In this document: piece after piece, positions 20,761 to 50,283 of the stretch | Layout of the letters: the number at the start of each line of letters is the position of its first letter | Position numbering within the stretch: the first letter of the stretch is position 1 | Assembly (NCBI GenBank): GCA_037178625.1 | Contig: CM074132.1 | Span: 1,426,001 to 1,490,000 of the forward strand | Source: Skeletonema tropicum | Lineage: Eukaryota > Bacillariophyta > Thalassiosirophyceae > Thalassiosirales > Thalassiosiraceae | Reading direction: 5' to 3' | Length of the DNA stretch: 64,000 nucleotides | Made by a program: the position numbers and the translations under genes | The notes under the pieces: generated by a model | What the model was told of the DNA's origin: nothing | The model's database searches: none | What the model saw: the letters and a program-made list of their open reading frames with translations, nothing else

Positions 20761-20874
20761 GTGAGTAAAAGTTGACACACGAAAGACACAAGACAATTGC
20801 CACTCTCTGCGAAAACACTACTAACTCATTTCATACTGATACAAATGCATCCTACCCCAACTTATTGCGCACAG

Positions 20875-21486: not shown

Positions 21487-22006
21487 TAAAATTGATCACT
21501 GCACAGTTTTACAAAACAGACACTTTCTCACCACAAAGAATACAACAACTCAATTAAGCGTCTGCATCTGGTGATCAGTAAAACATCTGCAAGCGCACGA
21601 TTCGATATATCAAGCACAGTTTTACAAAAAGACATTTTCTCGCGACGAAGAAAGACAAAAACTAAATCGACTAACGCCCGTGTAAAACCTGTATTTCTTT
21701 CTCGTACAGACCGATTTAGATGCTCAAAAAGCGGCTTTAGTACAGTCAATTTCTCGCTTTCAACAGGTACTTCTTGCTTTCTACATAGGAACACATACAG
21801 ATCCTACGCCGGTAGTCTCTACTGAGGACTCTACGTGTCCCTAAAGTAAACCTTCTCACTAAAAAACACATGTACTGATTCCTACCTATAACTCTGTAGA
21901 ATAATGGGGGTGAAAAATAATGAATTTTCCCACCTGTAATAGAAGGGCACCTGCGGCCCCCTATTACGCTGCTCTGCACTCCATGAACGGGGGCCCCGAG
22001 GGCCGA

Positions 22007-23797: not shown

Positions 23798-24392
23798 TAA
23801 ACAGGGGTGCGCAGAATGTGGCGAGAGTGGTGGCGTGGTGGTGCCTGTGGCGGGTTCAGCGCAGGCCCTCGGGGCCTGTCGAGTATTGTGTCATTTTGTA
23901 GTTGGCCATTGCACTTTGGTTTGTTAGTAGTCTTTTTACAACGGAATTCGGCTATAAAGTTGCTCTGCAATGACGTTGGCCTTAATTGGTATAATTGTGC
24001 TGTGCACAATTTGGTACTTTGTGACGTAAGACGATTGGAATCAAGTGTACTAATTCCTTAAGTAACGAAGTTTACCACGTCACTCAGAGAAAAAATTAAG
24101 AAAATAGAGGGTGACGGGGATGCACACCGGAAAGAACGAAGAAGCTCATCGACAATCTGACTTAATTAGCCTGGAAAAGTCCTTTTTAGCACAAAACAAG
24201 CGATTTTTAGATCTAAATCATAAGATATAGCATCTAAATGACAATCAAAATGGGCATTTCAGCGGGGATAGGAGGGGGGAAAATCCCAACACTTCAAGTT
24301 GAAGTTCCGGAAGTAATTCAGAGCAAAGCACCGCACCCAACGAATCCGGCCGCACAGATCTCGCATAAAACGCAACAGCGCTCCACCAAATC

Positions 24393-24953
24393 ATGACCGA
24401 CGAACAACATCCAACTGAACACGATAACGACGACACCATGAACTCACCTGAAGCTACAGATGCAACTGAATCTGCTGTTGAATCTGCAGCTGAAGCTGTG
24501 GACGCAAAAAGCACGTTAAAGGAGACAACGAGTCCGCCAGACAATCAGATGAACACCCCCGGAAAGAATAACACACCTACCGATCATACTGCCGAGGCTG
24601 TCACCAGACCAACCACCAACAACGTTATCACCCCTGACAAACCAACAGCAGGTACAGAAACGACTACGCAGCAAGTCGAGGAAGATCGACCTGAGCATTA
24701 CATCAAAGGCACAAATACGGGCCTGCCAACAAAAATTAGTGCTACGGTTTTCGTTTGCTTCACCCATTTGGATCCAGAAGGCAAATTGGTAGCGGAGAAT
24801 GTAAATCAAGCGGTACCACAGCAAGAGAAGATACTCGGGCTATTGAAACTGGTGGCTACGGGTAAATCCGGCGACAACAAAGAAATGAACGACAGTCAGA
24901 TACACTTACACTTCAGCAAGAAAGCAGCGGAGGATGATTCCGCGGAAGATTGC
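24393..24953 (+). CDS. Gene X exon 1 in HLE-4
   Basis: Same 187-codon exon as in HLE-3, differing by a few substitutions. Exon 2 (25250-25588) reads two codons on from …DGIEG into helicase sequence in an unrelated frame before TGA, because the joint here has GG where HLE-3 has TG. Confidence 0.75.
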
Positions 24954-25249
24954 GTGAGTTTACTTTTGTTGAATCTGCGCAACGAACCATTTTGTAAAAT
25001 TGATCACTGTACAAATTTGGGAATGTTGATTCGTTGATCGATTGCGATGTTGCACAGAACGAATTTGTAAATTTGATCACTGTACAATTTTGGTAATATT
25101 GATTCGTCGATCGATTGCTGCAGCCAAACTACATCATGCTACTTGATTTGTATAATTGCTCACTGTGCGATTAAACGAATATTGATTTATAGATCCGTTG
25201 CTGAACTCACAACTAACACTTGATTGATGCTACTCCACATTAATAACAG

Positions 25250-25588
25250 GAGAAGACAGAACCAGTCAATGCAACTCATATGTCATTGATTGCATCCAGT
25301 GAAGAAGCGAGGACTAGTGTGGCTTACGGATTGCCATTCACGTATGTTCCAGAGCTATCACACTTAATCGACGTACTCAACGGAGATGATGGTAGTGGCA
25401 CAGATGAAACGAAAAGAGAAATATCAGAGGCATTAACTGCTAATGTGACAACAGTCGAAGGTCAACGAAAGCTTTTGAGCACTGCAAGAAAGCACCATTG
25501 GCTAGATGAAAGTCAAAATGAAGTCAAGGTGGCAGTCCAAGACGGTATCGAGGGAGGATCGCTCCGTTGGACCAAACGGAAAAGGTGA
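25250..25588 (+). pseudogene. Truncated gene X exon 2 in HLE-4
   Basis: It follows gene X to VQDGIEG, then reads about 12 unrelated residues (GSLRWTKRKR-type) out of helicase exon 4 in the wrong frame. The deletion joint is the same as in HLE-3, so both copies descend from one deleted founder. Confidence 0.8.
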
Positions 25589-25790
25589 GGTTAGCCTACC
25601 GAAGTACATTGTTGTGGATTTCCCTACATACAAACCACCACCAGGCGAGGACCCATGGGACAAGAACAACCCAACGGTGAGTAAAAGTTGACACACGAAA
25701 GACACAAGACAATTGCCACTCTCTGCGAAAACACTACTAACTCATTTCATACTGATACAAATGCATCCTACCCCAACTTATTGCGCACAG

Positions 25791-26402
25791 CACGTGCCAA
25801 TCCCACCCTACGAGCAGATTTGCAACAGGGGATGCTGCACCGCATTATTCATGCCATTGCAAATTGCCTACGCCATCACCATCCACCGCTGTCAAGGACT
25901 CGAAGCTGGATTCGACAAAGGAGACCGCTGGAACCGCATGATAATAGATCCAGCAGATGAGTTGTGGGAGATTAGCAAGTTTCTTGGAACAATGTACGTG
26001 GCTACCAGCAGAGGCAAAACACTTGGCTCCAAAGATCAAGCATACCCGTCGGACAGTGCCATATACTGGACCGGAAGCAACATTTCAACGAACCGATTAA
26101 AAAATTGCAAGAGAAAGCAAAATGGCCAGTTCTGCGAATCGTACAAGAAGCGAGCAAATTGGGTGAAATACTTGGAGGGGAAGGCAGAAGAGTCGAAGAC
26201 AAGGTATAGCAAGAGAAAGTTGGAAGAAATCACAGAAACATCGTACGCAGCAGCAATCAAGGGCAATTTCATCAAAGACAGGACAGACCTGACAACCAGG
26301 ATTACCAACATCATAACCAACCCGAACAAGAAGTGGAAAGAAGCGAAGAAGGATCATGAAATCCCAAGTGATTACTTCGCAGGATCTTCATCTGATGATT
26401 AG
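25791..26402 (+). CDS. Helicase exon 5 in HLE-4
   Basis: Open from the acceptor to TAG 26400-26402, with helicase motifs V and VI and the basic tail. As in HLE-3 it is only the C-terminal part. The stop overlaps the palindrome. Confidence 0.8.
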   Translation, partial: HVPIPPYEQICNRGCCTALFMPLQIAYAITIHRCQGLEAGFDKGDRWNRMIIDPADELWEISKFLGTMYVATSRGKTLGSKDQAYPSDSAIYWTGSNISTNRLKNCKRKQNGQFCESYKKRANWVKYLEGKAEESKTRYSKRKLEEITETSYAAAIKGNFIKDRTDLTTRITNIITNPNKKWKEAKKDHEIPSDYFAGSSSDD

Positions 26403-26922
26403 TAAAATTGATCACTGCACAGTTTTACAAAACAGACACTTTCTCACCACAAAGAATACAACAACTCAATTAAGCGTCTGCATCTGGTGATCAGTAAAAC
26501 ATCTGCAAGCGCACGATTCGATATATCAAGCACAGTTTTACAAAAAGACATTTTCTCGCGACGAAGAAAGACAAAAACTAAATCGACTAACGCCCGTGTA
26601 AAACCTGTATTTCTTTCTCGTACAGACCGATTTAGATGCTCAAAAAGCGGCTTTAGTACAGTAAATTTCTCGCTTTCAACAGGTACTTCTTGCTTTCTAC
26701 ATAGGAACACATACAGATCCTACGCCGGTAGTCTCTACCGAGGACTCTACGTGTCCCTAAAGTAAACCTTCTCACTAAAAAACACATGTACTGATTCCTA
26801 CCTATAACTCTGTAGAATAATGGGGGTGAAAAATAATGAATTTTCCCACCTGTAATAGAAGGGCACCTGCGGCCCCCTATTACGCTGCTCTGCACTCCAT
26901 GAACGGGGGCCCCGAGGGCCGA

Positions 26923-29762: not shown

Positions 29763-30294
29763 TAAACAGGGGCGCGCAGAATGGTGCGATAGTAGTGGCG
29801 TGCAGCGGTGTATGTGGCGGGTTCAGCGCGGGCCCTCGGGGCCTGTAAAGTATTGTGTCGTCATCTTGCTCTGTTGGCCATTTGCCGTGTGGCTTGTCAG
29901 TAGTCTTTATACAACGGAATTCGGCTATAAAGTTGCTCTGCAATGACGTTGGCCTTAATTGGTATAATTGTGCTGTGCACAATTTTACCAATTAGTCTCT
30001 TTACAATAGAATACGGCTATAAAGTTGCTCTGCAATGACGTTGTCTTTAATTGTGTTAGAATTGTGAAAATCATCTATCTGTCCATCGGCACTAGTATTT
30101 GTGTAGGGATTTGAGAGAAGATTGCAGTGCGCCTGATCAAATTATATATAATTGTGCTGTGCACACTTATACCAATTAGTACATTGTCCGGCAGTCATTC
30201 GTCGTCTCAACTGTTTGTTTTCGGATCAGCTGTTTAGTTGCGCTTAGTGTTCACTGTTGTGCATCTCTTTCACTTTCAACTCATCCACTCGATT
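29763..30294 (+). repeat. HLE-5 5' terminal region and subterminal repeats
   Basis: It holds the 5' tip, the GC-rich GGCCCTCGGGGCC hairpin (GGCCC/GGGCC arms), and two direct repeats of ATACGGCTATAAAGTTGCTC-type sequence (29917-29951 and 30008-30043). Two palindromes lie at 29961-29989 and about 30146-30173. By analogy these are binding sites for the element's Rep/helicase. No gene is seen before 30295. Confidence 0.85.
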
Positions 30295-30696
30295 CTATCG
30301 TTTCAGTGCGAGTTTTTTATTCCCTCTTTTCCATGTTGGTGCCGGCATGTTATAGTTCACCTCTGTATATAGTATTGAGCCTGGTACCATAGTGTTCGTC
30401 CTGTCTGTCTCAGTTTGTCCCATCATTGCAGCATAATTGGTTCTATGTCTCCCCATATCTTTTATGTAGTCTGTTATGATGGATTCAATTGTGTCCTTCT
30501 CTTGTTCTGTTTGTGCACCTCCCAAGATTCTATCTACTGCTAGTTTCGCTCTCTCTATGCTTCCCTCGCTCAGTTGCAGCAGTCTTGTTGCTATTCCAAT
30601 TCCTCTGTCATTGTTTTGCAGCTTTAGTTGTTGCCGTAAACTTTCGACATCGTTTTTAAACGCGCTGTTTGATAGCTTAGTTGATCGTTCCATCAT
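30295..30696 (-). CDS. HLE-5 small coiled-coil-like protein (133 aa)
   Basis: The frame runs from ATG 30696 or 30693 to TAG 30295. It is Lys/Glu/Gln-rich and predicted by eye to be helical (VESLRQQLKLQNNDRG…QTEQEKDTIESIITDYIKDM), without a known domain. Part of its 3' end survives in HLE-6 (near 60470-60540), so the gene belonged to the common ancestor. A spliced extension is possible. Function unknown. Confidence 0.55.
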   Translation of the reverse strand: MMERSTKLSNSAFKNDVESLRQQLKLQNNDRGIGIATRLLQLSEGSIERAKLAVDRILGGAQTEQEKDTIESIITDYIKDMGRHRTNYAAMMGQTETDRTNTMVPGSILYTEVNYNMPAPTWKRGNKKLALKR

Positions 30697-30940
30697 ATTC
30701 AGTGAGAGTATCGTAGTGAAATAACTTGCCCCAATTTGGTTCTCATCAGTGGTTTCTCAAGCGATTGTGTTTGTGGCTATTTTCTCGTAATTACATATTT
30801 CTTGTGTTCGTCGCCGAACTGATACACATGACCACAGATTCTTTTCTATTACACATAACTAAATACTCCATAACATAGACAGCTTTCAGCTGTCTCTCTC
30901 TAGACATCTCTCTTTGTTTTGTCGATGCTTCATCATTTCA

Positions 30941-31810
30941 ATGGTGTATATTAGATCGAGGGACGTTCGTTCATCTCGTATCGTTGTGAATCGCCCTATA
31001 CCAAGGACTAAGGTCTTGTCCTTGTTTGACAATTACAGTGCATCATTTTGTGAGTTGCATGCTTGTAGTAGTAGCTCTTGCATATCGGTTGATGTGTTGG
31101 ACGAAACCATCGTCTCACAGTTGTTTGGTTCCGATCAACGCTCTCTTGCATCGTTTCGGCTTGTAGGCGGCGTTTTGCTTCGATCGTCTTTGGCTGCTAA
31201 GCTGTTGAGCAAATGTGATGTTCTGTTCGACTTATCAATATGGTATTTTTGGGATTTGGTTGTGATGCAATCAGGGTGGTCGTTATTGGACGTCACAGAG
31301 CTCAACGCTTGTCTCGGCTGCGCCGATGTTCTTTATTTGGGGTTAGTTCGTTTTCTTCCATCCCAGCTGTGCAACCAACGATGTGTTTCAAGCCATTCCC
31401 CATGCACATCTTCTTTGTGCACTATTCGCTGCGAGAGACTGTTCTCTGTCGATGTAGCTTATGGATTGTGCTCCGACATCAGCTTGTTGCTTTCACGGAA
31501 AGCTCTTGTCATGAAATCCGTCGCTGGGCCAGACAATTTCTCTATTAGAGAACTGGGTCAACTCCAGTACCAATTAGATCTCCTGAATCGTATGATTGAA
31601 TGCAGACGTCCCATTTCAGAGACTTTTATGTTTTGCATGGATATCAACGCCCTTTTGGTGTCCAAGCGTGGTTTGTTGGACCGCGATTTTGACGTGTTCA
31701 ATTTGTCTCATATGTCAGAGCTTCTTGCTGACGAAGTCTTCAACAGCGTTCTTCTCAAGGTTTATTGTTTGAATTTCGAGCAGTTATCCGCTGATATTGT
31801 CGTGGACTAG
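30941..31810 (+). CDS. HLE-5 hypothetical protein (about 289 aa)
   Basis: Open from ATG 30941 to TAG 31808-31810. The sequence is Leu/Ser/Cys-rich with basic patches near the N terminus (IRSRDVRSSRIVVNRPIPRT) and helical stretches later. I recognise no family and see no transmembrane protein pattern strong enough to claim. A palindrome copy begins 24 bp after the stop (31834-31860), between this gene and the convergent gene X. Confidence 0.55.
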   Translation: MVYIRSRDVRSSRIVVNRPIPRTKVLSLFDNYSASFCELHACSSSSCISVDVLDETIVSQLFGSDQRSLASFRLVGGVLLRSSLAAKLLSKCDVLFDLSIWYFWDLVVMQSGWSLLDVTELNACLGCADVLYLGLVRFLPSQLCNQRCVSSHSPCTSSLCTIRCERLFSVDVAYGLCSDISLLLSRKALVMKSVAGPDNFSIRELGQLQYQLDLLNRMIECRRPISETFMFCMDINALLVSKRGLLDRDFDVFNLSHMSELLADEVFNSVLLKVYCLNFEQLSADIVVD

Positions 31811-32026
31811 TCTGATGTATCGTGTATCAATTTCTATAATTGTGCATTGCACAGTTTTACTAATTGGGCGAAGTTCTTATGTTATGGTTCTTAGTTTTGT
31901 TACTTTTTATGGTTGACCAATTGTCTCGTGTTTCATCAACCCTTTCCGTCGTTATAGCCTGTTGTTGGTCGTCGGTCAAGCTTTCGTTGTCTCTCCTTGT
32001 TATGCTCCCCATTCCCCTGTTGTTAG

Positions 32027-35000
32027 CTATTCTTCTGTCTCATTTGGTACCATCCACCTGTAATTTGCGTTGTTTGTTGTTCTCTTAGCGCCGTCGACTG
32101 ATGGTTCTCCGTAGATGTAAATTGTGTTGTAAGGATCGACGACAGTGTCACCTTTCTTGCCGCTCACGTTGAACACTCTCTTATATTCCTCTCCGTTTTT
32201 TCTGTGCAAAAAGACGATTGACTTGTTCATTTCCTTCACGATCTGCGTAATAGCTGTCTTCAAAGGTAAGCCAAACAAGTTCTTTGCCCACTTCTCAGCC
32301 ATCTGTTGCTCCTTCGTAGTCAACCCAATACGTTTGTTCGTTTTGTGCTTTTTCTTCCTTCCTCTCCATTTCATGTTACTCCACGCGAGGTTGATGACGT
32401 CAAAGAATCCAGTTTGGTCGTACTGTTTTCCTACCTCATATCCTTCTACTGCTTCGAATGTTGTTTCGGTTCTTGCCACGACATCGTCACTTTCAATCAT
32501 CTCATCTATATCAGCTTCTGCTTCTGGAAGTGTAGGGAACAATTCATCAATGATTGCTTTTGCAATGTTTGTCATTAATCCTTCTCCCAAGATATCTTTA
32601 CCAACTTTATTCTGTGCTGCTTTCACGGCTCTAGCTCTCAATTCATCCTTGCTCTCTCGTCCGTGGAGTTCGTGCTGCGTCGTATTGCCTGACTGTTGCG
32701 ACACGATCGTTTTACTGGCACAATCATTGGTGCGTTGCTTTTTCGAATTTGTCTCCTCTGTATCAGTTGTTGATCCATTTTTGTCTTTACTTTGATGCTT
32801 CTCCGACTTCCTCTTCTTACTCTCCTTTCTTTTGCTTGGCTTTCCCTCCTTGGTAGCAGCAGGTTTCGTTGGAAGTGTGTACGTACGGATGAGCTTGCCC
32901 TTAAGTTGCGCAGTCCCTCTGATCAAGTCGCCCAGCTGCGTTAGCGATAACAACGATCCTGTCATTTGAAAGTCACTCGGTGATTCGATTCTAGATGTGA
33001 CCGTTTCATTCCCAATCTTTAGAACCTTCATCAACTGACTTGATGTTTTCACTGAGTCGCTTGTCGTTTTGAATCGCTTGTCTTTTCCGAAGAAGAGGTC
33101 TTGGAGCTTTCTCGGATTGCCTCTCTCTTTCTCTGCGGATCGAACCACATTCCAACAAAAGATGTGGCAAATGAGCTCTACTAGTGTCATATCACCAGGA
33201 GCTGTTACGATGGTCATCACATCTCTACCCTTAGTCGGTATCTTGCTTTGTCTTTTGGTTGAACTTGCACCTGTCTCATTCGTCACTCTGACCGCCTCAA
33301 TGACGTTACTTGCCAATTGCTCTTTATCGAGACGTGAAGTCTTGTCCTTGTCTTTCTTTCTTACCAAGAATTCTCTGATAGCTTCACCGACCAAATCCTG
33401 GTTGTCTTCTCTCAATAGGTCTTCACTAACTTGGATGTCTTCAGGGGTAGAAGCAATGAGTTGCATGTACTCGTGTAATAGATTCATTGTCACCATGAAG
33501 TTTAGTGCCGCGATATTCACATCTCTCTCTGTGCCTTCATCTTCCTTCAGCGTCTTCAGGACAACTGCGATCTCTTTTGCTGCCATACTAATCAATCCGA
33601 AACTTTTCGCTTGATTTCAATGAATAGATACTTGTTAGTCAAGGTACAACGAGCACAAGTTTACGAATGAAATGATACCAAGCTTGTTCTTACCAATACT
33701 CAATCTCAAATCATTCGCCATATCTTTGGTTTGCGACATGATGCTGAAGGCATTTAAAGTTTGATCAAGCAAGGCATCTGCGTTGAACAGTTTGGCAGAC
33801 TCGACTGTGTAGACCAACGCTGCAGTACTTGTCGCCATGATCCCTTCAACTGACCTGTCCCATAGTTTAGGCGTGTCATTGTATTTTCCATCAGTATCAT
33901 CCTTGGGTATCACAATCGTGTTCACTCCTGATCTTGGCATAATAATTCCGCCTGCCAACATTGCGCTTATCTGCTTTGAGGTAAATAGCTGCATTCCATC
34001 AGTTTCAAGCAATGACTGTACCGCTACCGCGAGTGGGAAAAATCTGGCCATGCTGTGCTCAACAGTCATCGGGTAGTTCCCTGTAGAACCGAAGTTGTCC
34101 ATATTACACTTGACAGGCAATTTGAGTACATCATTTGGTCCTCCACCATCAACTCTGAGCTGCACTTCGTTTTGGCACGTCTCGTATTCACGCATTGGAT
34201 TCTCGTAGTATTGAGTGAGCGGCTCTTCGGTGAAACTTGGGTCATCTTCAAACTCTTCAAGTGTCCTTGCCGTTCGCGCTCTCAGCCCCTTTATGGTCAA
34301 AACTTTACCTTTGCTGACTATCTTACCGTTAGTACCAACTTCCTTCTCAGTCCAATCCTCATGGTCTCTTCTCACAGAATTATGCTTAGTTAAGCCTCTG
34401 TATATATTTAGTACTGTTGATCCAAGCTTCCTTTTGCTCACGTTCTTGCTTTTCTCGGCTAGAAGAGTTTCCGCGAGGTGAGGCGCGGGGAAAGATTCGG
34501 TAGCAGTCCTTGATGCTACTGTAATGTGAGCGTCGAAGGGGTGGCTCAATATTGCATCACTGTCCGATTTTTTCAATTTCTCAAGAGCATTCTCCATGGC
34601 GTCATGTTCGTTATCTTCAATTCCTACGAATGAATTGGTCAAGAACGTCGGATCTCCGGGATTGCTTGGCTTGAAGAAGTAGCCTGACTCTCTCTTCACT
34701 TTGCATCGCAGCAGAGCTGCCAATAATGCTATCAAGCGGTGGTTGCCTTCAACAGCTGTGACATAGAATTTCAATGAAGCAGTGAAGGAAGTGTAGAAAT
34801 GACCAAATCCCTCGATACCATCTTGGACTGCCACATTGACTTCATTTTGACTTTCATCTAGCCAATGGTGCTTTCTTGCAGTGCTCAAAAGCTTTCGTTG
34901 ACCTTCGACTGTTGTCACATTAGCAGTTAATGCCTCTGATATTTCTCTTTTCGTTTCATCTGTGCCACTACCATCATCTCCGTTGAGTACGTCGATTAAG

Positions 35001-35970
35001 TGTGATAGCTCTGGAACATACGTGAATGGCAATCCGTAAGCCACACTAGTCCTCGCTTCTTCACTGGATGCAATCAATGACATATGAGTTGCATTGACTG
35101 GTTCTGTCTTCTCCTGTTATTAATGTGGAGTAGCATCAATCAAGTGTTAGTTGTGAGTTCAGCAACGGATCTATAAATCAATATTCGTATAATCGCACAG
35201 TGAGCAATTATACAAATCAAGTAGCATGATGTAGTTTGGCTGCAGCAATCGATCGACGAATCAATATTACCAAAATTGTACAGTGATCAAATTTACAAAT
35301 TCGTTCTGTGCAACATCGCAATCGATCAACGAATCAACATTTCCAAATTTGTACAGTGATCAATTTTACAAAATGGTTCGTTGCGCAGATTCAACAAAAG
35401 TAAACTCACGCAATCTTCCGCGGAATCATCCTCCGCTGCTTTCTTGCTGAAGTGTAAGTGTATCTGACTGTCGTTCATTTCTTTGTTGTCGCCGGATTTA
35501 CCCGTAGCCACCAGTTTCAATAGCCCGAGTATCTTCTCTTGCTGTGGTACCGCTTGATTTACATTCTCCGCTACCAATTTGCCTTCTTTATCCAAATGGG
35601 TGAAGCAAACGAAAACCGTAGCACTAATTTTTGTTGGCAGGCCCGTATTTGTGCCTTTGATGTAATGCTCAGGTCGATCTTCCTCGACTTGCTGCGTAGT
35701 CGTTTCTGTACCTGCTGTTGGTTTGTCAGGGGTGATAACGTTGTTGGTGGTTGGTCTGGTGACAGCCTCGGCAGTATGATCGGTAGGTGTGTTATTCTTT
35801 CCGGGGGTGTTCATCTGGTTGTCCGGCGGACTCGTTGTCTCCTTTAACGTGCTTTTTGCGTCCACAGCTTCAGCTGCAGATTCAACCGCAGATTCAGTTG
35901 CATCTGTAGCTTCAGGTGAGTTCATGGTGTCGTCGTTATCGTGTTCAGTTGGATGTTGTTTGTCGGTCAT
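32027..35970 (-). CDS. HLE-5 gene X: intact three-exon gene, 1187 aa, function unknown
   Basis: Exons 35970-35410, 35113-33694 and 33609-32027 join in phase (3564 nt, exactly 1188 codons). Introns have GTGAGT and GTAAGA donors and CAG and AAG acceptors. Residues 1-130 are disordered and acidic/Thr-rich. Around residue 310 a VEGNHRLIALLAALL stretch resembles the GxHR box of ParB/DGQHR-type nucleases, but this is weak. The third exon has a nuclear-localisation-like Lys/Arg tract (KPSKRKESKKRKSEK). The gene is divergent from Rep/helicase. Its 5' exons persist in HLE-3 and HLE-4. Being fully open over 1187 codons suggests a role in transposition. Confidence 0.8.
35114..35409 (-). other. Gene X intron 1 with three palindromes
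   Basis: This 296-bp intron (GTGAGT…ATAACAG) contains three 27-30-bp imperfect palindromes at about 35187-35213, 35268-35297 and 35344-35372, each of the GTATAATTG…CAATTATAC type. HLE-3 and HLE-4 keep all three. They occupy nearly a third of the intron. Confidence 0.85.
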
Positions 35971-36836
35971 GATTTGGTGGAGCGCTGTTGCGTTTTATGC
36001 GAGATCTGTGCGGCGGATTCGTTGGGTGCGGTGCTTTGCTCTGAATTACTTCCGGAACTTAAACTTGAAGTGTTGGGATTTTCCCCCCTCCTATCCCCGC
36101 TGAAATGCCCATTTTGATTGTCATTTAGATGCTATATCTTATGATTTAGATCTAAAAATCGCTTGATTTGTGCTAGAAAGGACTTTTCCAGGCTAATTAA
36201 GTCAGATTGTCGATGAGCTTCTTCGTTCTTTCCGGTGTGCATCCCCGTCACCATCTATTTTCTTCATTTTTTCTCTGAGTGACGTGGTAAACTTCGTTAC
36301 TTAAGGAATTAGTACACTTGATTCCAATCGTCTTACGTCACAAAGTACCAGAAGTCAGGTGTTGGCAAAATCCAATGAACAAAAAAGTATTTAAGTTCAT
36401 GCAGCAAGTACTCAGGTCGACATTGGCTCAATTACATTATCTGCCGAGTCGTCTATTGATGCAAGTCTAAATAGACGCCGACGTTGGTTGCCGACGTGTT
36501 TGCATTTGAATAACTGCCGATCTTTGGCCACGTACTGATCAATACGTCAGTTCTTAACTCCACGTCGACGTCTTGTGTTGAGCTGAATCTTTTTGTCGAC
36601 GTGTTGTCGATGTGTTGAACCACAAGATCTTGTGTTGCCGACGTAGCTTACGAAGGAACTCGTTTACTTCATGACGTGGTTGGTTATTGATTGCATTGTT
36701 CTCTGCTGATTATTGCGCTGGTGCGTTGGCGGCGGTTATGTAGGCAGTTTGTACGTTGTCGAGCCGTTCAACAGCTCTCATAAATTATGCATTGCATCAT
36801 TTACATCATCACATTTCTACATTGTCCGAATAAATA
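35971..36836. promoter_or_regulatory. Divergent promoter region of gene X and Rep/helicase
   Basis: The 866 bp between the two divergent start codons have no gene. They are dense in GACGTC, GTCGAC and CACGT-type sites (around 36475-36610), which include the cores of bZIP/bHLH sites. A conserved GTGACGTAAGACG block (near 36332-36345, minus strand) persists in every copy that keeps this region. Promoter function is inferred from position. Confidence 0.6.
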
Positions 36837-39800
36837 ATGAAGTTTGGCAACACAAATCCAGTTATATCCACCGTTGGTAGTAATGGTAAGGGCTTCCGTG
36901 CCGTGCGGAATCGGAGCAATGTCGATGCACGTCTTACTTCGTCAGGGGTCAAGACTGCCGCTAAACCGTCGGCTCCTGTCATTGCATTGAGCGTAACAGA
37001 CATCAATTGGCGTTTGGTGCGTACCGACGATCGTATCTTCTCGCTGCTAGCGTCTGTTGCATTAGGCGATGGGTTTGACGTTGCCAAGTTGGAGAAGGAA
37101 CAACTGCTCTTTTCTGCTCTTTCCGTCTTTGAAGTCGGGTCAATCAAGTACATCCTGAATGAACTGTCTGAACATTACCCGAATGTCCCAGTTGGTAAGA
37201 CTGATTCTACTGACAAAGATGATCTGGTGTCTGCAGCGGTCAACTTCTTAATGTTTGCCGCTATTGCTCAGAAAGGAGGTACAAGCCAAGCGCCGTACAC
37301 TTCAAATTGTGAGCATTTTTGGTAAGAGAGAAGGTTAACCTTCGTGTGGTTCAATGATTTTGGTATTTTTGTTCATTGTACCGTTTTACAAATTCTGTCT
37401 TTCCTTTTTACTTACAAGTTTTTTTTTCAACCTTCAACTTCACACCAGTGATGAGAACGGGAAACTTGTACTTGAAGACAAAACTCATTCGGGCTCCCGT
37501 GATCAACCTGTTCAAGATGATGATGAACCGGATTTGTCCGAGAAAGGTGCTGTCACGAAAAAGTCTAAACCGGTACCTGTCCGAGAGAAGGCCTCTCCTG
37601 ATTCAACTATCATGTGAGTTTATTTTGTGTGCATGTGCACTGCCGCACTAAGTATCGCTTGCTTATTGAATCATTTTAGTATAATCGATCACTGAACAAT
37701 TTTACCTAATAAATAAATGCAACTGCCTTCTACATAGCGAGAATGAGTGGGTTGATTACACCCATTCAGATCTCTCGGATGGATGGAAAAGGAAGAGTAT
37801 CAAGCGTAAGTGCGGCAAATCCCGCGGAACTATTTACCACCATTACCTCTCCCCTGACAACAAAGTTTTCAAGAGGGAGAGGACGCCCGAATGCTGTGCC
37901 AGGAGTGCATGGTGCACCACTGCAATGTGTATTGCCTTGGTACAAATACGAAATGCGAACGTCGTGAGTGTAGGTTTGGGTACGGTACGGAGACAGAGTA
38001 CGGCAAGTGTGATACAGATGGGAAACCACTCAGCAAAGTATCGGTGATAGTAACAGATCAAAAGGGAGTGGAACACTTCCAACTACGCCGTACAAAGTCG
38101 CGAAAGTCATGTCAGCACAGTAGGACACTGTTGCAAACCTGGAGGGCAAACATAGATATCCAGCTACTGGTTTATAGGTCACATCCAGACAAACCCGATG
38201 TCAGCGAGATTGAGAACGTTTGCAAATATGTCGTAGCATACGCCAGCAAGAAGAACCACACGTCCAAGAAGGAGAAAGAAGCAGTGCAGAACATTGTGCA
38301 AAGGTAAGTGTGCTCTGAAGATGAAAGTTGTCTCTCACACTGAATTCAGTGCAGTTGTGTATTCCGCCATCTTCTTTGGTAAAACTGTGCGGTGCACAAT
38401 TTTGCAAATTGAAACAAAATCTTACGCTGGGTAACCTCACTGTATTCCGCCATCGACTTTGGTAAAACTGTGCAGTGCACAATTTTGCAAATTGAAACAA
38501 TCGAACACTGTTAACCCCACTGCTAACACAACCTACCGCCACTATTAATTCTCACCTCCCAGCAAAAGCTCCGAGGATATAAGTGGTGTCCAAACATTGG
38601 TGAAAATGTCACTGAACTGGATGACAAGCAAAAGGCTCATCAGCATACAAGAGGCGGTGCACGAGATTGATAGGCTGAGTTTAACACTCTGTTCAGATGT
38701 GATCACTTACGTGTCGGTTCAGAATTGTCTGAAGCTACGAAAATCATCCGACCCTAAGCCAAACGACTTGGTCTATAGCTATGCAAGCAGGGAGGAAAAG
38801 TACAGCAAACTGACCTTGGATCAGTACTTTTACAAGGAGTGGTGTAGGAAAAAGTTCATGATAGACCCTGACAGCAATAGACGCATGAACAGGATACTCA
38901 TCGCCAAAGGACTCAATTGCAGACCACGTTACCCGGTGGACTACGATTATGCAAGAGGAATGTTGTTACTTCACAAGCCATGGAGCTTCGACAAACCACT
39001 TAATTTACGCGACAGACAGAGAACAATCAATACATTCAAGTTGATGCTGCAGAAAAGACAGGTCCCTACAAGTGTTTGGACCGAATACCAGAGAGCTGTT
39101 AGATACGCGCAAGAAAAAAGGATCGAATGTGTGGCAAGAAAAGGGACAATTCAAGCAGATGTCAACATTGACGAGCTCGACGATGACGAGGTAGATCAAC
39201 ACCTGAATCATTTGCACTCGACCCAACTCTCTGATAGGAAAGTGGATGAGTTACTTTTGGGGGGCAAGAAAATCGACGTAGGATTGAATCACGATTGGTC
39301 GAAGAGCTCGTTTGATGGAGAAAGAGACGTAACAATACCAGGGGAGGAGTACACAGTCAAACTCAGAGAGCAACGTGCCAGAGCCATGATGGACGATCAT
39401 TCAGGCGCAACAATACCCACGAAATCTGACGGATCAAGTTACAACATCGAGGAACTGTCCGAGGAACAGGCGATGATCGTACTCGCCACTGTCGATACTG
39501 TGGTGAAATTCCTTGATAATGACGAGGATTACAAGCCGCTACGAGCAACAATTACAGGAATGGGTGGGTGCGGGAAATCGCTGGTAATTAACACCATCAT
39601 TTCCATCATCAGGAAGCTGACCGATTCGAACAAGACAGTCCAGGTTGCTGCTCCTTCAGGCAGCGCAGCGTACAACGTCAAAGGGTGCACGCTGCACTCA
39701 CTTCTGGGAATTAACGTACAGGTACCTTACAAATCATTGGACGCAAAAAGAAGAGAAGAAATGTGCAATAAACTGAAAGAGCTGCTCGTACTGATGGTCG

Positions 39801-41401
39801 ATGAAAGAAGCATGTTGGGCTCACACGTAACATTCGGTGCAGAGGAGCATGTGAGAGATTGCGCATTTAATGGGCACAATAAACGGGAGAGGTGGGGCGG
39901 TGTCCCGGTTGTGTTGTTCTTCGGTGACGACTACCAGCTGCCACCGTCCAACAAGGGGGGAGCAATAAACGGCTACCACGAATACCACAACAACGATAGG
40001 CCAAAAACAATGACAGGAAAGAGTAAAAACAATCAAATATGCGATTACGAGGGTAGCAAAATCTTGACTGAGATGATGACGGATGTGGTCTTCATGTTGA
40101 CGAAGAATTTTAGAGCAAAAGACAAGGAGGATAGCGATCTCATGAACAGGATGAGAGTGGGGAACCAGACTGATGAGGATGCAAAGCGCCTGATCAAACT
40201 ACACATAGACGAACTCGGAAAATATCATCCAAAACTGAGGGAAGAGGTAGAAAATGACCCAAAGACGTTGTGGGTATACGCGAAACGGGACGATATGTCC
40301 CAGAAAAATGTAGACATGCTGATCAAAACACACGAACGACTGAAAGTACCAATAGCTAGGCTCAGGTGTCAATTCAGCAGCAGGATGGCGGGCAATAACA
40401 CAGCATACCAGTCGCACTTTTACGGCAGGAGGCTATTCTACACCTTTGATGTGTGCGTAGGTGCACATGTTTGCTTGGAGTCAGCCAACATCGATCCCAA
40501 CTCAGGATTGTACGTCTCAGCTATTGGGGTAGTTGTCGAGATCGTTTACGATAAGGATCGCTCCGTTGGACCAAACGGTAAAGGTGAGGTTAGCCTACCG
40601 AAGTACATTGTTGTGGATTTCCCTACATACAAACCACCACCAGGCGAGGACCCATGGGACAAGAACAACCCAACGGTGAGTAAAAGTTGACACACGAAAG
40701 ACACAAGACAATTGCCACTCTCTGCGAAAACACTACTAACTCATTTCATACTGATACAAATGCATCCTACCCCAACTTATTGCGCACAGCACGTGCCAAT
40801 CCCACCCTACGAGCAGATTTGCAACAGAGGATGCTGCACCGCATTATTCATGCCATTGCAAATTGCCTACGCCATCACCATCCACCGCTGTCAAGGACTC
40901 GAAGCTGGATTCGACAAAGGAGACCGCTGGAACCGCATGATAATAGATCCAGCAGATGAGTTGTGGGAGATTAGCAAGTTTCTTGGAACAATGTACGTGG
41001 CTACCAGCAGAGGCAAAACACTTGGCTCCAAAGATCAAGCATACCCGTCGGACAGTGCCATATACTGGACCGGAAGCAACATTTCAACGAACCGATTAAA
41101 AAATTGCAAGAGAAAGCAAAATGGCCAGTTCTGCGAATCGTACAAGAAGCGAGCAAATTGGGTGAAATACTTGGAGGGGAAGGCAGAAGAGTCGAAGACA
41201 AGGTATAGCAAGAGAAAGTTGGAAGAAATCACAGAAACATCGTACGCAGCAGCAATCAAGGGCAATTTCATCAAAGACAGGACAGACCTGACAACCAGGA
41301 TTACCAACATCATAACCAACCCGAACAAGAAGTGGAAAGAAGCGAAGAAGGATCATGAAATCCCAAGTGATTACTTCGCAGGATCTTCATCTGGTGATTA
41401 G
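36837..41401 (+). CDS. HLE-5 Rep-C-terminal/PIF1 helicase gene, five exons
   Basis: Exons 36837-37321, 37449-37613, 37738-38303, 38563-40675 and 40790-41401 join in phase at each splice. Exon 1 is an unknown domain and exon 2 a charged linker. Exon 3 opens with an MBD-like segment (DGWKRKSIKRKCGKSRGTIY…YLSPDNKVFK), then a Cys/His/CRFG segment and KYVVAYASK, which match the C-terminal Rep part of Helitron proteins, including a Tyr-x3-Tyr pair. Exon 4 has Walker A (GMGGCGKS), APSGSAAYNVKG, Walker B (LVLMVDERSM), GDDYQLPP and LTKNFR. Exon 5 has motifs V and VI. Total length is 2 nt out of phase because exon 3 changes frame near 37870-37890, and no HUH motif precedes CRFG. An internal deletion is likely. 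Confidence 0.88.
38304..38562 (+). other. Helicase intron 3 with a tandemly duplicated palindrome
   Basis: The intron (GTAAGTG…CTCCCAG) contains two direct copies of a roughly 60-bp unit, each with TATTCCGCCATC, then the palindrome GTAAAACTGTGC…GCACAATTTTGC (about 38379-38405 and 38462-38488), then AAATTGAAACAA. Confidence 0.85.
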
Positions 41402-41921
41402 TAAAATTGATCACTGCACAGTTTTACAAAACAGACACTTTCTCAACACAAAGAATACAACAACTCAATTAAGCGTCTGCATCTGGTGATCAGTAAAACA
41501 TCTGCAAGCGCACGATTCGATATATCAAGCACAGTTTTACAAAAAGACATTTTCTCGTGACGAAGAAAGACAAAAACTAAATCGACTAACGCCCGTGTAA
41601 AACCTGTATTTCTTTCTCGTACAGACCGATTTAGATGCTCAAAAAGCGCATCTAGTACAGTCAATTTCTCGCTTTCAACAGGTACTTCTTGCTTTCTACA
41701 TAGGAACACATACAGATCCTACACCGGTAGTCTCTACCGAGGACTCTACGTGTCCCTAAAGTAAACCTTCTCACTAAAAAACACATGTACTGATTCCTAC
41801 CTATAACTCTGTAGAATAATGGGGGTGAAAAATAATGAATTTTCCCACCTGTAATAGAAGGGCACCTGCGGCCCCCTATTACGCTGCTCTGCACTCCATG
41901 AACGGGGGCCCCGAGGGCCGA
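41401..41921 (+). repeat. HLE-5 3' tail
   Basis: A palindrome starts on the last base of the helicase stop codon (41401-41427). Then follow about 490 bp shared with all HLE copies. A block around 41680-41785 (GGTACTTCT…CTACGTGTC…AAACCTTCTCACTAAA) is conserved even in the divergent HLE-7. The tip is ATGAACGGGGGCCCCGAGG followed by GCCGA, with a GGCCC/GGGCC hairpin. This arrangement fits a Helitron-type terminator. Confidence 0.85.
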
Positions 41922-44372: not shown

Positions 44373-44768
44373 TCGGCCCTCGGGGCCCCGGGTCGAAACA
44401 AGCGCAGTGAAGTGTCGATAACGGGGCCGGGAGGTGCCCAACCCCTTATGGTCACAAATTCTCCATTTTTTTCCAAACTTTTTTCTACAGGGATCTTGGT
44501 AGGAATCAGTATAGTAGCTGTTTAGTGAGAAGGTTTACCTGGGGGACACGTAGAGGCTCTGTAGACCCATACCGCTGTAGAATTTGTACTTGTTCCTACG
44601 TAGAAAGCGAGAAGTACCTGGCTTAAATGCGCTTTTTACAGAAATTGATTGGCTATATCTGTCGAGGATACCGTCATTCGCAGAAAGAAATGCAGGTATA
44701 TTGTCATTATAGGTGACATGTTTCTTCATCACGAGAAATATTCTCCCTTTGTTGTATCTGTCAATTGA

Positions 44769-44802
44769 AAATAATTTTGTCTTCAAGACAAATTTATTTT
44801 CC
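44769..44802. repeat. HLE-7 palindrome after helicase copy a
   Basis: Imperfect version of the arm AAATAAATTTGTCTT around a 1-nt centre. Perfect 16-bp-arm copies (AAAATAAATTTGTCTT, then G, then its complement) lie at about 48727-48759, and a near-perfect one at 47551-47583. All three lie 30-80 bp past the helicase stop codons, where HLE-1 to HLE-6 have the other palindrome. Confidence 0.85.
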
Positions 44803-44835
44803 ATGCAAGTTGTGAATATGGCATTGTATCGTCCA

Positions 44836-47513
44836 CTAGGAAAAATAATCGCGTGGCAATTGGTATTCTTTCTTCGCTTCTTTCCATTTTTTGTTTGGGT
44901 TGGTTATGATTTCGGTGATGCGGTTCGTCAGGTCCTCTCTATTTTTTATTAAAGTACCACTCACTGCCTTTTGGTAAGTTGTTTTCGTCATTTCATCAAG
45001 CTTTCTTTTGTTGTATCTTGTCTTGGTTTCTTCTGCCTTGCCGTCAAGGTATTTGACCCATTTGTCCCGCTTCTTGAAGAGTTTGCAGAGTTGGCCATCT
45101 TGGTTCGTCTTGCAATTGTGTAACCGTTCTACAGACACGCTCGGCCCTGTCCAATAAATGGCACTATCCGTCGGGTGCATAACATTTTTGGAACCAAGTG
45201 TTTTGCCCCTGCTGGTAGCAACGTATCCTGTCCCAAGGCACTGGCTTCTCTCCCAGAGCTCATCTGACGGATCTATCACCATGCGATTCCATCGATCGTC
45301 CTTGCCGAACCCGGCCTCCATGCCCTGGCAGCGGTGTATTGTGATTGCGAATGCAATTTGCAGGGGCATGAACGTGGCAGTACAGCATCCTTTGTTGCAG
45401 ATGTGAGTGTAGGGTGGTATTGGCACGTGCTGAGTGGAGTGGTGGAGTGGAGTGATTGCAAATTTGTGTAAAGAGGGATGATTGATCAGTGCCATGCTAT
45501 ATTTCGAGTTCAAGAATACATTTCTACTTTCACTCACCGTTGGATTCTTTTTGTCCCAGGGTTCAATGCCTTGCCGCGGTTTGAAGTATGGGAAATCAAC
45601 GACTATATACTTTGGGAGGGATTCAACACCATTTGTGTTTGGTCCTACGGAGTGCTGCTCGTCATAAACGATGTCAATCACCTTCCCAATCGCTCCAACG
45701 TACAGGCCAGAGTTCGGATCAATGTTCGCTGTCTCCAGGCACACGTGCACACCAACGGAAACGTCTAAAGTGTACAACATCTTTTTGCCGAAGAAATGCG
45801 ACTGGTACACAGTGGGATTGCCAACCATGTTGCTCCTGAATTGGCATCTGAGCCGTGCTACCGGTACTGACAGCCGTTTCTGTGTTTTTACGAGCATTTT
45901 GACATTTTGCTTATTCATTTCCTCCCGTTTTGCGTAGGCATGCAATGTTTTTGGATCGTCCTCGATAGTGTCTCTGAACTTGGAGGAATAGTAGCTTAAA
46001 TGCAAGTTGATCAGACGACGTGCGTCCTCCTTTGTTTGATCGCCCACTCTCATTCTGTTCATCAATTCGCAGTCGTCCTTGTCTTGTGTCCGGAAGTTTC
46101 GAGTCAATTTGAACACATTATCTACCATCATGACAGTAAGAATGTAACAACCTTCGTACTCGCATACCTGGTTGTTCTTGCTTCTTGCAGTCATTGATTG
46201 GGGTCTCTGATTACTGTGATACTTGTCATATCCGCTTATGGCTCCATTCTTGTCCGTTGGGGGCAATTGAAAATCGTCACCGAACAACAGTACAACAGGA
46301 ACACCACCCCACAGCTCCGTGTTATTGTGACCGTAAAATGCGCATTCTCGAACGTGCTCTTCAGCTCCATATGTCACGTGTGAGTTCATCATGCTTCTCT
46401 CGTCGACCATCAAGACAAGAAGTTCCTTGAGCTTCTTTTGAAGCTCTTTCTTCCTTTCAGCATTCAAAGATGCCCATGGCACCTGCACGTTAATACCAAG
46501 AAGGGAATGCAGCGTGCAGCCCTTGACATTATAAGCAGCACTGCCTGACGGTGCGGCAACTTGGACTGTGTTGTTCACGTTGGTCATCTCTCTTATGATG
46601 GATATGATAGTGCTTATGACATGTGACTTCCCACATCCGCCCATGCCAGTAATGGTGGCTCGCAGTGGCAAGTAGTCTTCGTCGTTCTCTAGGAACTTGA
46701 CAACTGTATCGACCGTCGCGAGCACTATCATTCGTTGTTCGTCGGATAGGTCGTTGATGTCATACTTTGTACCATCTGATTTTGTGGGAATATCAGTTGG
46801 ATCATTCTCATCATTTAGTACCTTGGTAGCATGATCCCTAATCATGATCGTGTACTCCTCCCCAGGCATTGTTATGTCCCTATCTCCCTGGAAGAAGCTC
46901 GCCGACCAATCGTGGTTCAATCCTATGTCCACTGTCATGTTTTCCGCAAGGATCGGGTTGGTCTTCATGTCAGTTAACTGGCTGGAATGGAAAAAGTTCA
47001 GGAATTGTTCCGCGTCTTCTGGATCGAGATCGTCTATGTTGACATCTGCCTGAATAGTGCCCTGCTTCGCCACTACCTCAATTCTCTTCTCGTGAGCATA
47101 CCTTACAGCTCGCTCATATTCGGTGACAACATTTGTAGGGACAACTCTAGTGTCGAGCATTTTTTTGAAAGTGTCTATTGTCCGTTGTTTGTCTCTGGTA
47201 CATAATGGATTCTTGAAACTCCACGGTTTGTGCATGATTAACATCCCTCGTGCGTAATCGAAGTCGATAGGGTATCGTGGTCTGCAGTTGAGACCTCTTG
47301 GGAGTAGGATCCTGTTACATTCCCGATCGCTATCTGGGTCGATCATGAAGTTTTTCCTGCACCAAACCTTATAGAAATACTCGTCCAATGATAATCTGTT
47401 GTGTTTTTCATCACGTGTTGCGTAGCAATACACTAGATCTTTTGGCTTTGGGTCGGAGGATTTTCGCAGTTTCAGACAGTTTTGTATCGAAACGTAGGTG
47501 ATAACATCCGTTT
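44836..47513 (-). CDS. HLE-7 PIF1 helicase, copy a (long, 5'-truncated)
   Basis: About 58% of exon 4 is similar at protein level to HLE-5, and all SF1B motifs are intact: GMGGCGKSHVI, APSGSAAYNVKG, LVLMVDERSM, GDDFQLPP, LTRNFR, AITIHRCQGMEAGF, YVATSRGKTLG. The intron 45430-45537 is 108 bp, a multiple of three, and has no stop, so retention would add 36 residues and keep the frame open. Upstream of 47513 the homology to exon 4 ends at a duplication border, so exons 1-3 are not attached. ATG 47433 is the first Met in frame. Confidence 0.85.
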
Positions 47514-47617
47514 ATTGATTGTCGTTAATTTGTCATGTTGCCGCGATTGATAATAAATTTGTCTTGAAGACAAATTTATTTTCCATGCAAGTTGTGAATA
47601 TCGCATTGTATCGTCCA

Positions 47618-48663
47618 CTAGGCAAAATAATCGCGTGGCAATTGGTATTCTTTCTTCGTTTCTTTCCATTTTTTGTTTGGGCTGGTTATGATTTCGGTGA
47701 TGCGGTTCGTCAGGTCCTCTCTATTCTTTATTAAAGTACCACTCACTGCCTTTTGATAAGTTGTTTTCGTCATTTCATCAAGCTTTCTTTTGTTGTATCT
47801 TGTCTTGGTTTCTTCTGCCTTGCCGTCAAGGTACTTGACCCATTTGTCCCGCTTCTTGAAGAGTTTGCAGAGTTGGCCATCTTGGTTCGTCTTGCAATTG
47901 TGTAACCGTTCTACAGACACGCTCGGCCCTGTCCAATAAATGGCACTATCCGTCGGGTGCATAACATTTTTGGAACCAAGTGTTTTGCCCCTGCTGGTAG
48001 CAACGTATCCTGTCCCAAGGCACTGGCTTCTCTCCCAGAGCTCATCTGACGGATCTATCACCATGCGATTCCATCGATCGTCCTTGCCGAACCCGGCCTC
48101 CATGCCCTGGCAGCGGTGTATTGTGATTGCGAATGCAATTTGCAGGGGCATGAACGTGGCAGTACAGCATCCCTTGTTGCAGATGTGAGTGTAGGGTGGT
48201 ATTGGCACGTGCTGAGTGGAGTGGTGGAGTGGAGTGATTGCAAATTTGTGTAAAGAGGGATGATTGATCAGTGCCATGCTATATTTCGAATTCAAGAATA
48301 CATTTCTACATTCACTCACCGTTGGATTCTTTTTGTCCCAGGGTTCAATGCCTTGCCGCGGTTTGAAGTATGGGAAATCAACGACTATATACTTTGGGAG
48401 GGATTCAACACCATTTGTGTTTGGTCCTACGGAGTGCTGCTCGTCATAAACGATGTCAATCACCTTCCCAATCGCTCCAACGTACAGGCCAGAGTTCGGA
48501 TCAATGTTCGCTGTCTCCAGGCACACGTGCACACCAACGGAAACGTCTAAAGTGTACAACATCTTTTTGCCGAAGAAATGCAACTGGTACACAGTGGGAT
48601 TGCCAACCATGTTGCTCTTGAATTGGCATCTGAGCCGTGCTACCGGTACTGACAGCCGTTTCT
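47618..48663 (-). pseudogene. HLE-7 helicase, tandem partial copy b
   Basis: It repeats the end of exon 4 (from about SVPVARLRCQF), the intron and exon 5, nearly identical to copy a. It lacks the Walker motifs. The upstream edge at 48663 meets the 3' tail of copy c. It is a product of tandem duplication and probably not functional alone. Confidence 0.85.
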
Positions 48664-48799
48664 GACGAGAAATATTCTCCCTTTGTTGTATCCTTTATTG
48701 ATTGTCGTTAATTTGTCATAATGCTCGATTGAAAATAAATTTGTCTTGAAGACAAATTTATTTTCCATGCAAGTTGTGAATATTGCATTGTATCGTCCA

Positions 48800-49509
48800 C
48801 TAGGCAAAATAATCGCGTGGCAATTGGTATTCTTTCTTCGCTTCTTTCCATTTTTTGTTTGGGTTGGTTATGATTTCGGTGATGCGGTTTGTCAGGTCCT
48901 CTCTATTCTTTATTAAAGTACCACTCACTGCCTTTTGGTAAGTCGTTTTCGTCATTTTGTCGAGCTTTCTCTTGTTGTATCTTGTCTTGGTTTCTTCTGC
49001 CTTGCCGTCAAGGTACTTGACCCATTTGTCCCGCTTCTTGAAGAGTTTGCAGAGTTGGCCATCTTGGTTCGTCTTGCAATTGTGTAACCGTTCTACAGAC
49101 ACGCTCGGCCCTGTCCAATAAATCGCACTATCCGTCGGGTGCATAACATTTTTGGAACCAAGTGTTTTGCCCCTGCTGGTAGCAACGTATCCTGTCCCAA
49201 GGCACTGGCTTCTCTCCCAGAGCTCATCTGACGGATCTATCACCATGCGATTCCATCGATCGTCCTTGCCGAACCCGGCCTCCATGCCCTGGCAGCGGTG
49301 TATTGTGATTGCGAATGCAATTTGCAGGGGCATGAACGTGGCAGTACAGCATCCTTTGTTGCAGATGTGAGTGTAGGGTGGTATTGGCACGTGCTGAGTG
49401 GAGTGGTGGAGTGGAGTGATTACAAATTTGTGTAAAGAGGGATGATTGATCAGTGCCATGCTATATTTCGAATTCAAGAATACATTTCTACATTCACTCA
49501 CCGTTGGAT
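48800..49509 (-). pseudogene. HLE-7 helicase, tandem partial copy c
   Basis: It has only the last 9 bp of exon 4 (AATCCAACG) with the GTGAGT donor, then the intron and exon 5. Immediately upstream an unrelated captured frame ends against this donor. A transcript through both could splice onto helicase exon 5, but the two frames are not in phase. Confidence 0.8.
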
Positions 49510-50283
49510 TCCCTTTTCCGACAGCTCTCCCAACATAGATCCAATAGTTCCAGACGCTTTTGTGTTCTGTGGAATTTCTCCAACTCCAACTGGCCGAGCT
49601 GCATTGCCATTATTGCTACGAAATACACCAGCATCGTCTGCTTCCAAGGGGGCGTTATCAACATTACCAACACCCATATTGGTGCCATCATTATCACGTT
49701 CTCCTGACAGTCTAGCAACCGAAGTAGCATTACGACACGGATAATCCTTCACGGTAGAACCAGAAGACTCATGAAACAGGCGGTCGAGACAGCTGCGCGG
49801 AAGTCTACTGGTAGACGGAGAATCATATAAATGATCGCGAATGGTTTGGCGGCCCACAAGACTGCGATCTTCTGAGCAGCGGCGATATGCGCGAACAGTA
49901 GCAGGTTGTTCCCCAGCATGATACAGCAACGCCGGAAGATTAGTTGGGTCAACTGCTGACTCCTCATCAGAAGGAGTAGACGCTGGTATGTCCGTTTCAG
50001 ACGGATGATGAGTATTCACTGGAGTTGCGGCACTACCATTGCTCTCTTTAGGGCACTGCTGTTCGATGTCATAATTTTTTGATGATTGCTTTAACTTTAA
50101 CAAAGAACTCGCCTGCTCGACAACGTCATAATCATTATTATTATCGCATGATCTCCATGATTTGCATGATGCATCAAATGCTTCTGCCTGCTCAAAGTTA
50201 GTGCATCTAACATGAGCGGGAGAGATGCAATCGCCTTGCCACAGTGAGAACCTCTCTTGAAATACACTTGTCGACCAATGCAA
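49510..50283 (-). CDS. HLE-7 captured frame, Ser/Asn-rich C-terminal part
   Basis: The open frame (about 258 aa) continues from the DDE-like gene in another frame and ends at the helicase donor of copy c. It is low in hydrophobics, Ser/Asn/Asp-rich (…SETDIPASTPSDEESAVD…) and probably disordered. A frame change or intron near 50215-50230 would connect it to the preceding gene. No catalytic domain. Confidence 0.5.

Follow-up and report, generated by a model that had tools for sequence, protein, structure and literature searches.

A many-copy Helitron2-type transposon family in Skeletonema tropicum with a RepHel gene that probably runs against the conventional element direction

The 12.2-kb element at positions 29,763 to 41,921 of the window, by which we mean the whole 64,000-nt stretch of DNA analysed here, is very probably a rolling-circle transposon of the Helitron2 type (HLE2), with a RepHel gene oriented opposite to the usual direction of such elements, as judged by analogy with described elements. 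The family to which it belongs is real and unusual in size and gene content, but it is very probably not a new kind of element. The window holds seven copies:

c1, 2934 to 6862, minus strand: deletion derivative, 3,929 bp
c2, 15242 to 16515, plus strand: 1,274-bp derivative with ends 85% and 90% identical to those of c5
c3, 18865 to 22006, plus strand: derivative with an internal segment inverted; empty site at locus L033
c4, 23798 to 26922, plus strand: structure like that of c3; paralogous empty site between window positions 10863 and 10864
c5, 29763 to 41921, plus strand: non-autonomous deletion derivative of 12,159 bp, one of eight copies with the same deletion
c6, 56387 to 61041, minus strand: deletion derivative, 4,655 bp
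c7, 44373 to 54594, minus strand: member of a divergent family with repeated helicase fragments; empty site at locus L050

An exact match to TAAACAGG occurs six times in the window, against an average of 1.76 expected by chance, and all six are element ends that align with the end at 29763 over 190-300 bp at 84.7-100% identity. The right ends of all seven copies align over 250-300 bp at 74-100%, and these end alignments are far beyond chance. GGGCCGA matches the window 12 times, with 7 of the 12 at element ends. In the direction of the helicase gene, c1 to c6 start with TAAACAGG and finish with GGGCCGA; c7 also has GGGCCGA, but its opposite end begins with TGAAATGG. The initial annotation, which gave all seven copies both ends, was thus right about GGGCCGA and, for six of the seven, about TAAACAGG. 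Copies c7 and c5 are about 70% identical in the helicase region (69% amino acid identity for the helicase), and no Rep match was obtained in the c7 ORFs scanned.

The internal structure of several copies is rearranged. In c7, the C-terminal part of the helicase is present three times in tandem at 44836-49609 with about 98% identity, and an ORF at 50207-50956 (minus strand), without an accepted Pfam match, is possibly part of a nested element; from a motif, we take it to resemble part of a DDE-type transposase. In c3 and c4 (18865-22006 and 23798-26922), the segment equivalent to c5 34807-36350 sits inverted. A piece of about 105 residues of the 493-aa protein described below gave nine matches including c3 and c4, which suggests further copies of that derivative, the inversion itself being established for c3 and c4.

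The 13-bp repeat GGCCCTCGGGGCC is located 2 bp from the helicase-direction 3' end in all seven copies, and inside the helicase-direction 5' end by 68 bp in c1, c3, c5 and c6, by 66 bp in c2 and c4 and by 60 bp in c7. The asymmetric 13-bp inverted repeat proposed earlier is thereby upheld at the 3' end, while its 68-bp spacing at the other end applies to four of the seven copies. Part of the inverted repeat pairing arises because GGCCCTCGGGGCC is itself an imperfect palindrome, with a 5-bp stem and a 3-nt loop. We considered the paired repeat as a mere by-product of this palindrome and rejected the explanation, which is true in part, yet the repeat is kept in 7/7 copies including the approximately 70% identical c7. 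Folding was predicted for five stretches (the two termini of c5 and, from c2, c4 and c7, the Helitron2 3' terminus) and gave a stem of 5-7 bp with a 3-nt loop in all five; the folded ends were no stabler than shuffled sequences (z from 0.21 to -1.23), so that the hairpin is weakly supported. Related short repeats occur at 29901-30066, 38358-38522 and 54355-54516, near the ends and in an intron-like stretch of RepHel, and several of them hold a TTGTGCTGTGCACAA-like palindrome.

When the element is turned over, its reverse complement begins 5'-TC GGCCC TCG GGGCC, where the palindrome is the 13-bp repeat at 2 bp from the 5' end in 7/7 copies. The second palindrome is then located 60-68 bp before the 3' end (66-68 bp in six copies, 60 bp in c7), and c1 to c6 finish with ...CTGTTTA. 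In c5 these features are:

41907 to 41919, minus strand: 5' asymmetric terminal repeat in the Helitron2 orientation, palindrome GGCCC-TCG-GGGCC, 2 bp from the terminal TC
29831 to 29843, minus strand: 3' asymmetric repeat in the Helitron2 orientation, same palindrome, 68 bp from the 3' end ...CTGTTTA

This is the plan described for Helitron2 and Helentron elements, in which one palindromic repeat is found 0-4 bp inside the 5' terminus and a 3' repeat tens of bp inside (PMC3627910, PMC5148889, PMC4067079), for which a RepHel gene on the strand opposite to the conventional direction is also in print (PMC3627910, PMC5148889). The polarity that we assign is suggested by this resemblance. The terminal plan is hence already published, and the departures are a slightly longer 3' spacing, the exact terminal bases and a G accepted at -1; against the 20-60 bp range printed for the 3' repeat in the portions of the papers available, six window copies fall slightly beyond and c7 at the limit. 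The earlier claim that the family fits no standard subgroup therefore does not hold, since the reversed ends and target match the Helitron2/Helentron plan and a reversed RepHel has been reported; the reading as a new combination of features fails because the element had been oriented by its helicase gene.

Insertion is not accompanied by target duplication. No duplication of the flanks was observed in any of the ten copies for which both flanks are in hand, and at three paralogous empty sites the two flanks meet directly, without a gap across the junction: c3 against L033 (92.9% identity over 280 bp), c7 against L050 (97.5% over 237 bp) and c4 against window 10846-11004 (71% over 159 bp). Both results agree with the absence of duplication stated in the initial annotation, where the alignment of filled and empty sites had been put forward as a check. 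At the c4 empty site, the codons around the junction remain in register in a by-eye reading, and the protein encoded there resembles what we take to be a Copia RNase H. A candidate empty site for c2 at 2270-2747 was excluded from the count, as it matches the right flank while no more than about 7 bases agree on the left. The segment 2270-2747 is 99% identical to 16516-16993, beginning exactly at the helicase-direction 3' end of c2.

To define the target, we collected the loci of 30 of the 40 listed matches to the 5' end and of 30 of the 42 listed matches to the 3' end, plus the seven window copies, and merged identical 12-base flanks before counting, which left 31 distinct flanks per side. The end searches scored the best 40 of 207 and of 209 candidates, so that copy numbers are lower bounds. 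In the helicase direction, the base to the left of the element is A in 28/31 flanks and the base to the right is T or C in 30/31, as had been described; an A three bases into the right flank (30/31) had been overlooked. In the Helitron2 direction the target reads TNR^TA, with T at -3 in 30/31 and a purine at -1 in 30/31 of the 5' flanks (A in 22, G in 8), and T at +1 in 28/31 and A at +2 in 22/31 of the 3' flanks. One base at the insertion junction is ambiguous, and an ambiguous junction base was likewise noted by the authors of the FoHeli study (PMC5148889).

Among the closest described elements are FoHeli1 and FoHeli2 of Fusarium oxysporum, in which a hairpin with a 3-nt loop comes after the TC and the 3' repeat is 38-51 bp inside, and whose termini were confirmed by pre-insertion sites (PMC5148889). 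As in these elements, the 5'-TC is followed by a 3-nt-loop hairpin that carries the inverted repeat (12 bp in FoHeli1/2), the repeat forms a hairpin near the 3' end too, and the target is of the TNAT^A type with its long part on the hairpin side. The FoHeli1/2 insertion is given as between TNAT and A, although a figure legend prints TNAT and T (PMC5148889); the target TNR^TA matches this form and not TTTT^T/C. Unlike the family described here, the FoHeli elements are 5-6 kb in size, their 3' repeat is 38-51 bp rather than 60-68 bp inside and they end in ATTTT rather than TTTA, while G at -1 is tolerated here (8/31); in the available text of the same paper, a reversed RepHel is reported for FoHeli4/5 and not for FoHeli1/2 (PMC5148889).

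Other described elements share parts of the pattern. In the mite elements HINE-Mo and Helentron-Mo, the subterminal repeats of 12-15 bp are palindromic too, and they are located 2-4 nt from the 5' terminus and 38-60 bp from the 3' terminus, a layout like that of the present family (PMC4067079). Helentrons differ in their C-terminal endonuclease and RPA, none of which was found here, and in their T-rich or TT target (PMC4067079). The elements in PMC3627910 likewise have asymmetric repeats, a 5'-T and a RepHel opposite to the conventional direction, but their 3' repeat is located 20-30 bp inside and the portion of that paper available makes no mention of a multi-gene cluster. The multi-gene proto-Helentron-Pi of Phytophthora infestans (about 14 kb) is similar in its large size, several extra ORFs including one that runs the other way, insertion at A^T with no duplication and lack of an endonuclease, and differs in its 5'TT...CTAG ends and its SET domain, with no Ulp1 protease mentioned in the available text (PMC4067079). 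Helitron2 is there described as encoding a single ORF, unlike the multi-gene element here (PMC4067079). In a literature search of titles and the beginnings of abstracts, no paper on a Helitron with a Ulp1 protease stood out, which is not proof of absence.

Two other readings of the ends deserve attention. If TAAACAGG were the true 5' end, the family would represent a new Helitron subgroup with a subterminal repeat at the 5' end, a terminal one at the 3' end and an A^T/C target. The RepHel gene runs in that direction and A^T alone resembles the target of canonical Helitrons, but this reading requires the mirror image of the described HLE2 ends, and merely turning the element over yields a TC with a hairpin at 2 bp and the T-N-R-T side beside the hairpin, as in FoHeli1/2; with reversed RepHel genes already described, we regard it as improbable. 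It is more improbable still that this is a canonical Helitron1 element with drifted ends. The TC at one end in the reverse direction and the A/T in the target would fit such an origin; against it, the Helitron1 pattern of 5'-TC, CTRR-3' and a hairpin only near the 3' end was not observed, the 3' end being CTGTTTA without CTRR and the palindromic repeat being present at both ends. A search of the PDB with Rep gave no match at E<=1, which says little on Helitron1 versus Helitron2. Helentrons carry an AP endonuclease fused after the helicase; scans of the helicase ORFs of c5 and c7 gave no endonuclease match at E<=1, and the element ORFs scanned as a whole gave none.

The RepHel strand of c5 contains the following features:

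36834 to 37325, plus strand: first long ORF on this strand, 163 aa, candidate gene
37685 to 37875, plus strand: start of a 965-aa ORF found in the copy on contig C5; the c5 deletion interrupts it at about 37874
37874 to 38307, plus strand: Rep C-terminus, which keeps the Y2 motif (CKYVVAYASKK) but has lost the HUH part
38549 to 41401, plus strand: Pif1-type helicase in two adjoining ORFs of 713 and 236 aa

The helicase matches PIF1 with E=7e-17. The Rep exon of c5 is without its N-terminal part, as the sequence jumps from 37875 into the middle of the exon with a loss of about 7.7 kb. The 12.2-kb copy is not autonomous, since this deletion removed the HUH half of Rep. In a long copy on contig C5 (L069), this exon forms a 480-aa frame that includes a Helitron_like_N domain (PF14214, E 8e-21) and the QIHLH and Y2 motifs. 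Similarly, locus L087 matches Helitron_like_N (PF14214, E=6e-21), and its HUH (QIHLH) and Y2 motifs were read directly. In both loci a helicase frame follows downstream of Rep, and further such Rep frames are found among the genome matches listed. An HUH-Y2 Rep and a Pif1-like SF1 helicase are accordingly present in the long copies although c5 is without the HUH part, and the earlier classification as Helitron-like is upheld. The Helitron_like_N search also returned matches of another sort, with 28 of the 67 genome matches scoring only 25.7-32.9 bits in frames of up to 2,388 aa (e.g. C22:1443527); these matches outside the window probably represent another Helitron lineage in the same genome.

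The distance between the gene for the 493-aa protein and Rep separates two sets of copies. Eight copies have an identical offset of 4,220 bp, and the derivative must therefore itself have multiplied; their left flanks are of seven distinct kinds, with one shared by the copies on C17 and C62, which may stem from a single insertion that was later duplicated. The full length, measured for two of the eight, is 12,159 bp. Seven long copies have offsets of 11,897-11,905 bp, and in several of them one or other gene is interrupted by stops or insertions. The size of the long copies is about 19.8 kb (19.84 kb, a projection of the offsets on contig C5 onto the C10 copy). The segment deleted from c5, as read in the contig C5 copy only (L091), encodes the 965-aa frame, a Ulp1/SENP-like cysteine protease (Peptidase_C48, PF02902, E 5e-10; SENP2 in the PDB, E 9e-13) and a DUF6570 protein (E 2e-18); the 965-aa frame has a weak MBD-like match below the cut-off. 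The dN/dS ratios of Rep and the helicase were unusable due to saturation at silent sites. Four scans of the helicase, Rep and the 493-aa protein against viral contigs confirmed no relative.

A cluster of four genes is oriented opposite to RepHel in c5, so that the copy contains at least four ORFs, in accordance with the initial annotation of a multi-gene element:

30295 to 30756, minus strand: 153 aa, no known domain
32027 to 33616, minus strand: 529 aa, no known domain; matched by 3 database entries, of which P0106 is an identical fragment
33635 to 35116, minus strand: 493 aa, no known domain; matched by 5 database entries, of which P0100 is almost identical
35326 to 35994, minus strand: 222 aa, no known domain

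The 5 and 3 database matches of the 493- and 529-aa proteins were obtained among the best approximately 8,000 candidates, and the relatives of the cluster are few and uncharacterised. Searches of the four proteins against Pfam, PHROGs and NCBIfam and of their relatives against Pfam gave no accepted match, and neither the 493- nor the 529-aa protein matched the PDB. An ROH1-like match of the 153-aa protein (E 0.01) and matches of P0107, a relative of the 529-aa protein, to SUD-C (E 0.0017) and DUF601 (E 0.0027) were rejected as below the curated cut-offs. The structure prediction for the 493-aa protein was poor, with a mean pLDDT of 31.5 (6 sequences), or 46.4 for a part of 213 residues (7 sequences). 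A VEGNHR/IEGNHR stretch in this protein is kept in seven aligned sequences from families A, B and C; a resemblance to ParB/DGQHR proteins is speculative.

Relatives of the cluster are found in diverged families. Family B has all four genes in the same order at 47-63% identity (three loci on C16 and one on C22), while no 153-aa match is listed for family B on C53; its 153-like frame carries stops, and no Rep match is found nearby among those listed. In family C, the 493-like and 222-like proteins are 27-38% and 26-28% identical, respectively, and Rep is 80% identical; a 530-aa ORF (493-like) is found opposite to the Rep strand in 14/16 loci, at a distance of 9.3-9.5 kb in 12 of the 14, and the searches with the 529- and 153-aa proteins list no match at the family C loci. 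By these sequence comparisons, the 493- and 222-like genes, which recur opposite Rep in family C, are far more diverged than Rep, and the 493-aa gene (dN 0.41 and dS 0.71 between families A and B) is constrained but fast-evolving.

The same data bear on whether the genes on the opposite strand were recently captured from the host and do not form a module of the element. In favour of capture, Helitrons do take up genes, the cluster proteins have no recognised domain, and a few of the listed matches are found away from other cluster genes: one to the 153-aa protein at C18:1849258 (50% over 135 residues, one stop), matches of 36 residues on C19 and C61, and matches of 20 residues at C6:3650926 and C6:3788685. 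No isolated, intact, full-length relative is among the matches listed, however; judged from their positions, the other matches are in clusters of three diverged families or resemble fragments of these, and the recurrence of the 493-like gene opposite Rep in family C is not expected of recent capture, which we consider quite unlikely. We infer instead that the opposite-strand cluster is a long-standing accessory module. Elsewhere in the window, a 362-bp direct repeat (7463-7824 and 12729-13090, 100% identical) possibly represents the LTRs of a retrotransposon.

For the transposition of these Helitron2-type elements, we envisage that the HUH/Y2 Rep would nick at the TC/hairpin end, which is the helicase-direction 3' end, that the Pif1 helicase would displace one strand, and that termination would occur beyond the subterminal repeat at the ...TTTA end, which is the helicase-direction 5' end. 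The displaced strand, or its circle, would then be joined into TNR^TA sites. The 12.2-kb and shorter copies may have been moved in trans by the copies of about 19.8 kb, which would supply the Ulp1-like protease, DUF6570, Rep and the helicase. As a guess, the opposite-strand cluster might counter host silencing or serve element-specific DNA handling.

The claimed new subgroup is removed by this analysis, and it points to an annotation trap, as orienting an element by its helicase gene inverts Helitron2 ends. What is unusual is a many-copy family of the Helitron2 type, about 20 kb in size, that carries a SUMO-protease-like gene together with a conserved cluster of orphan genes and has apparently been active recently because its copies are near-identical, and whose derivatives and empty sites make the polarity and the target rule directly testable. 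A layout of two opposed modules was not met in the portions of the Helitron literature compared (PMC3627910, PMC5148889, PMC4067079). It is a speculative idea, and on present evidence an unlikely one, that one conserved module for replication (protease, DUF6570, Rep and helicase) is combined with a rapidly evolving four-gene module that gives the element a life beyond simple transposition. If this were true, the four-gene module could allow, for example, escape from host silencing, extrachromosomal maintenance or cell-to-cell transfer.
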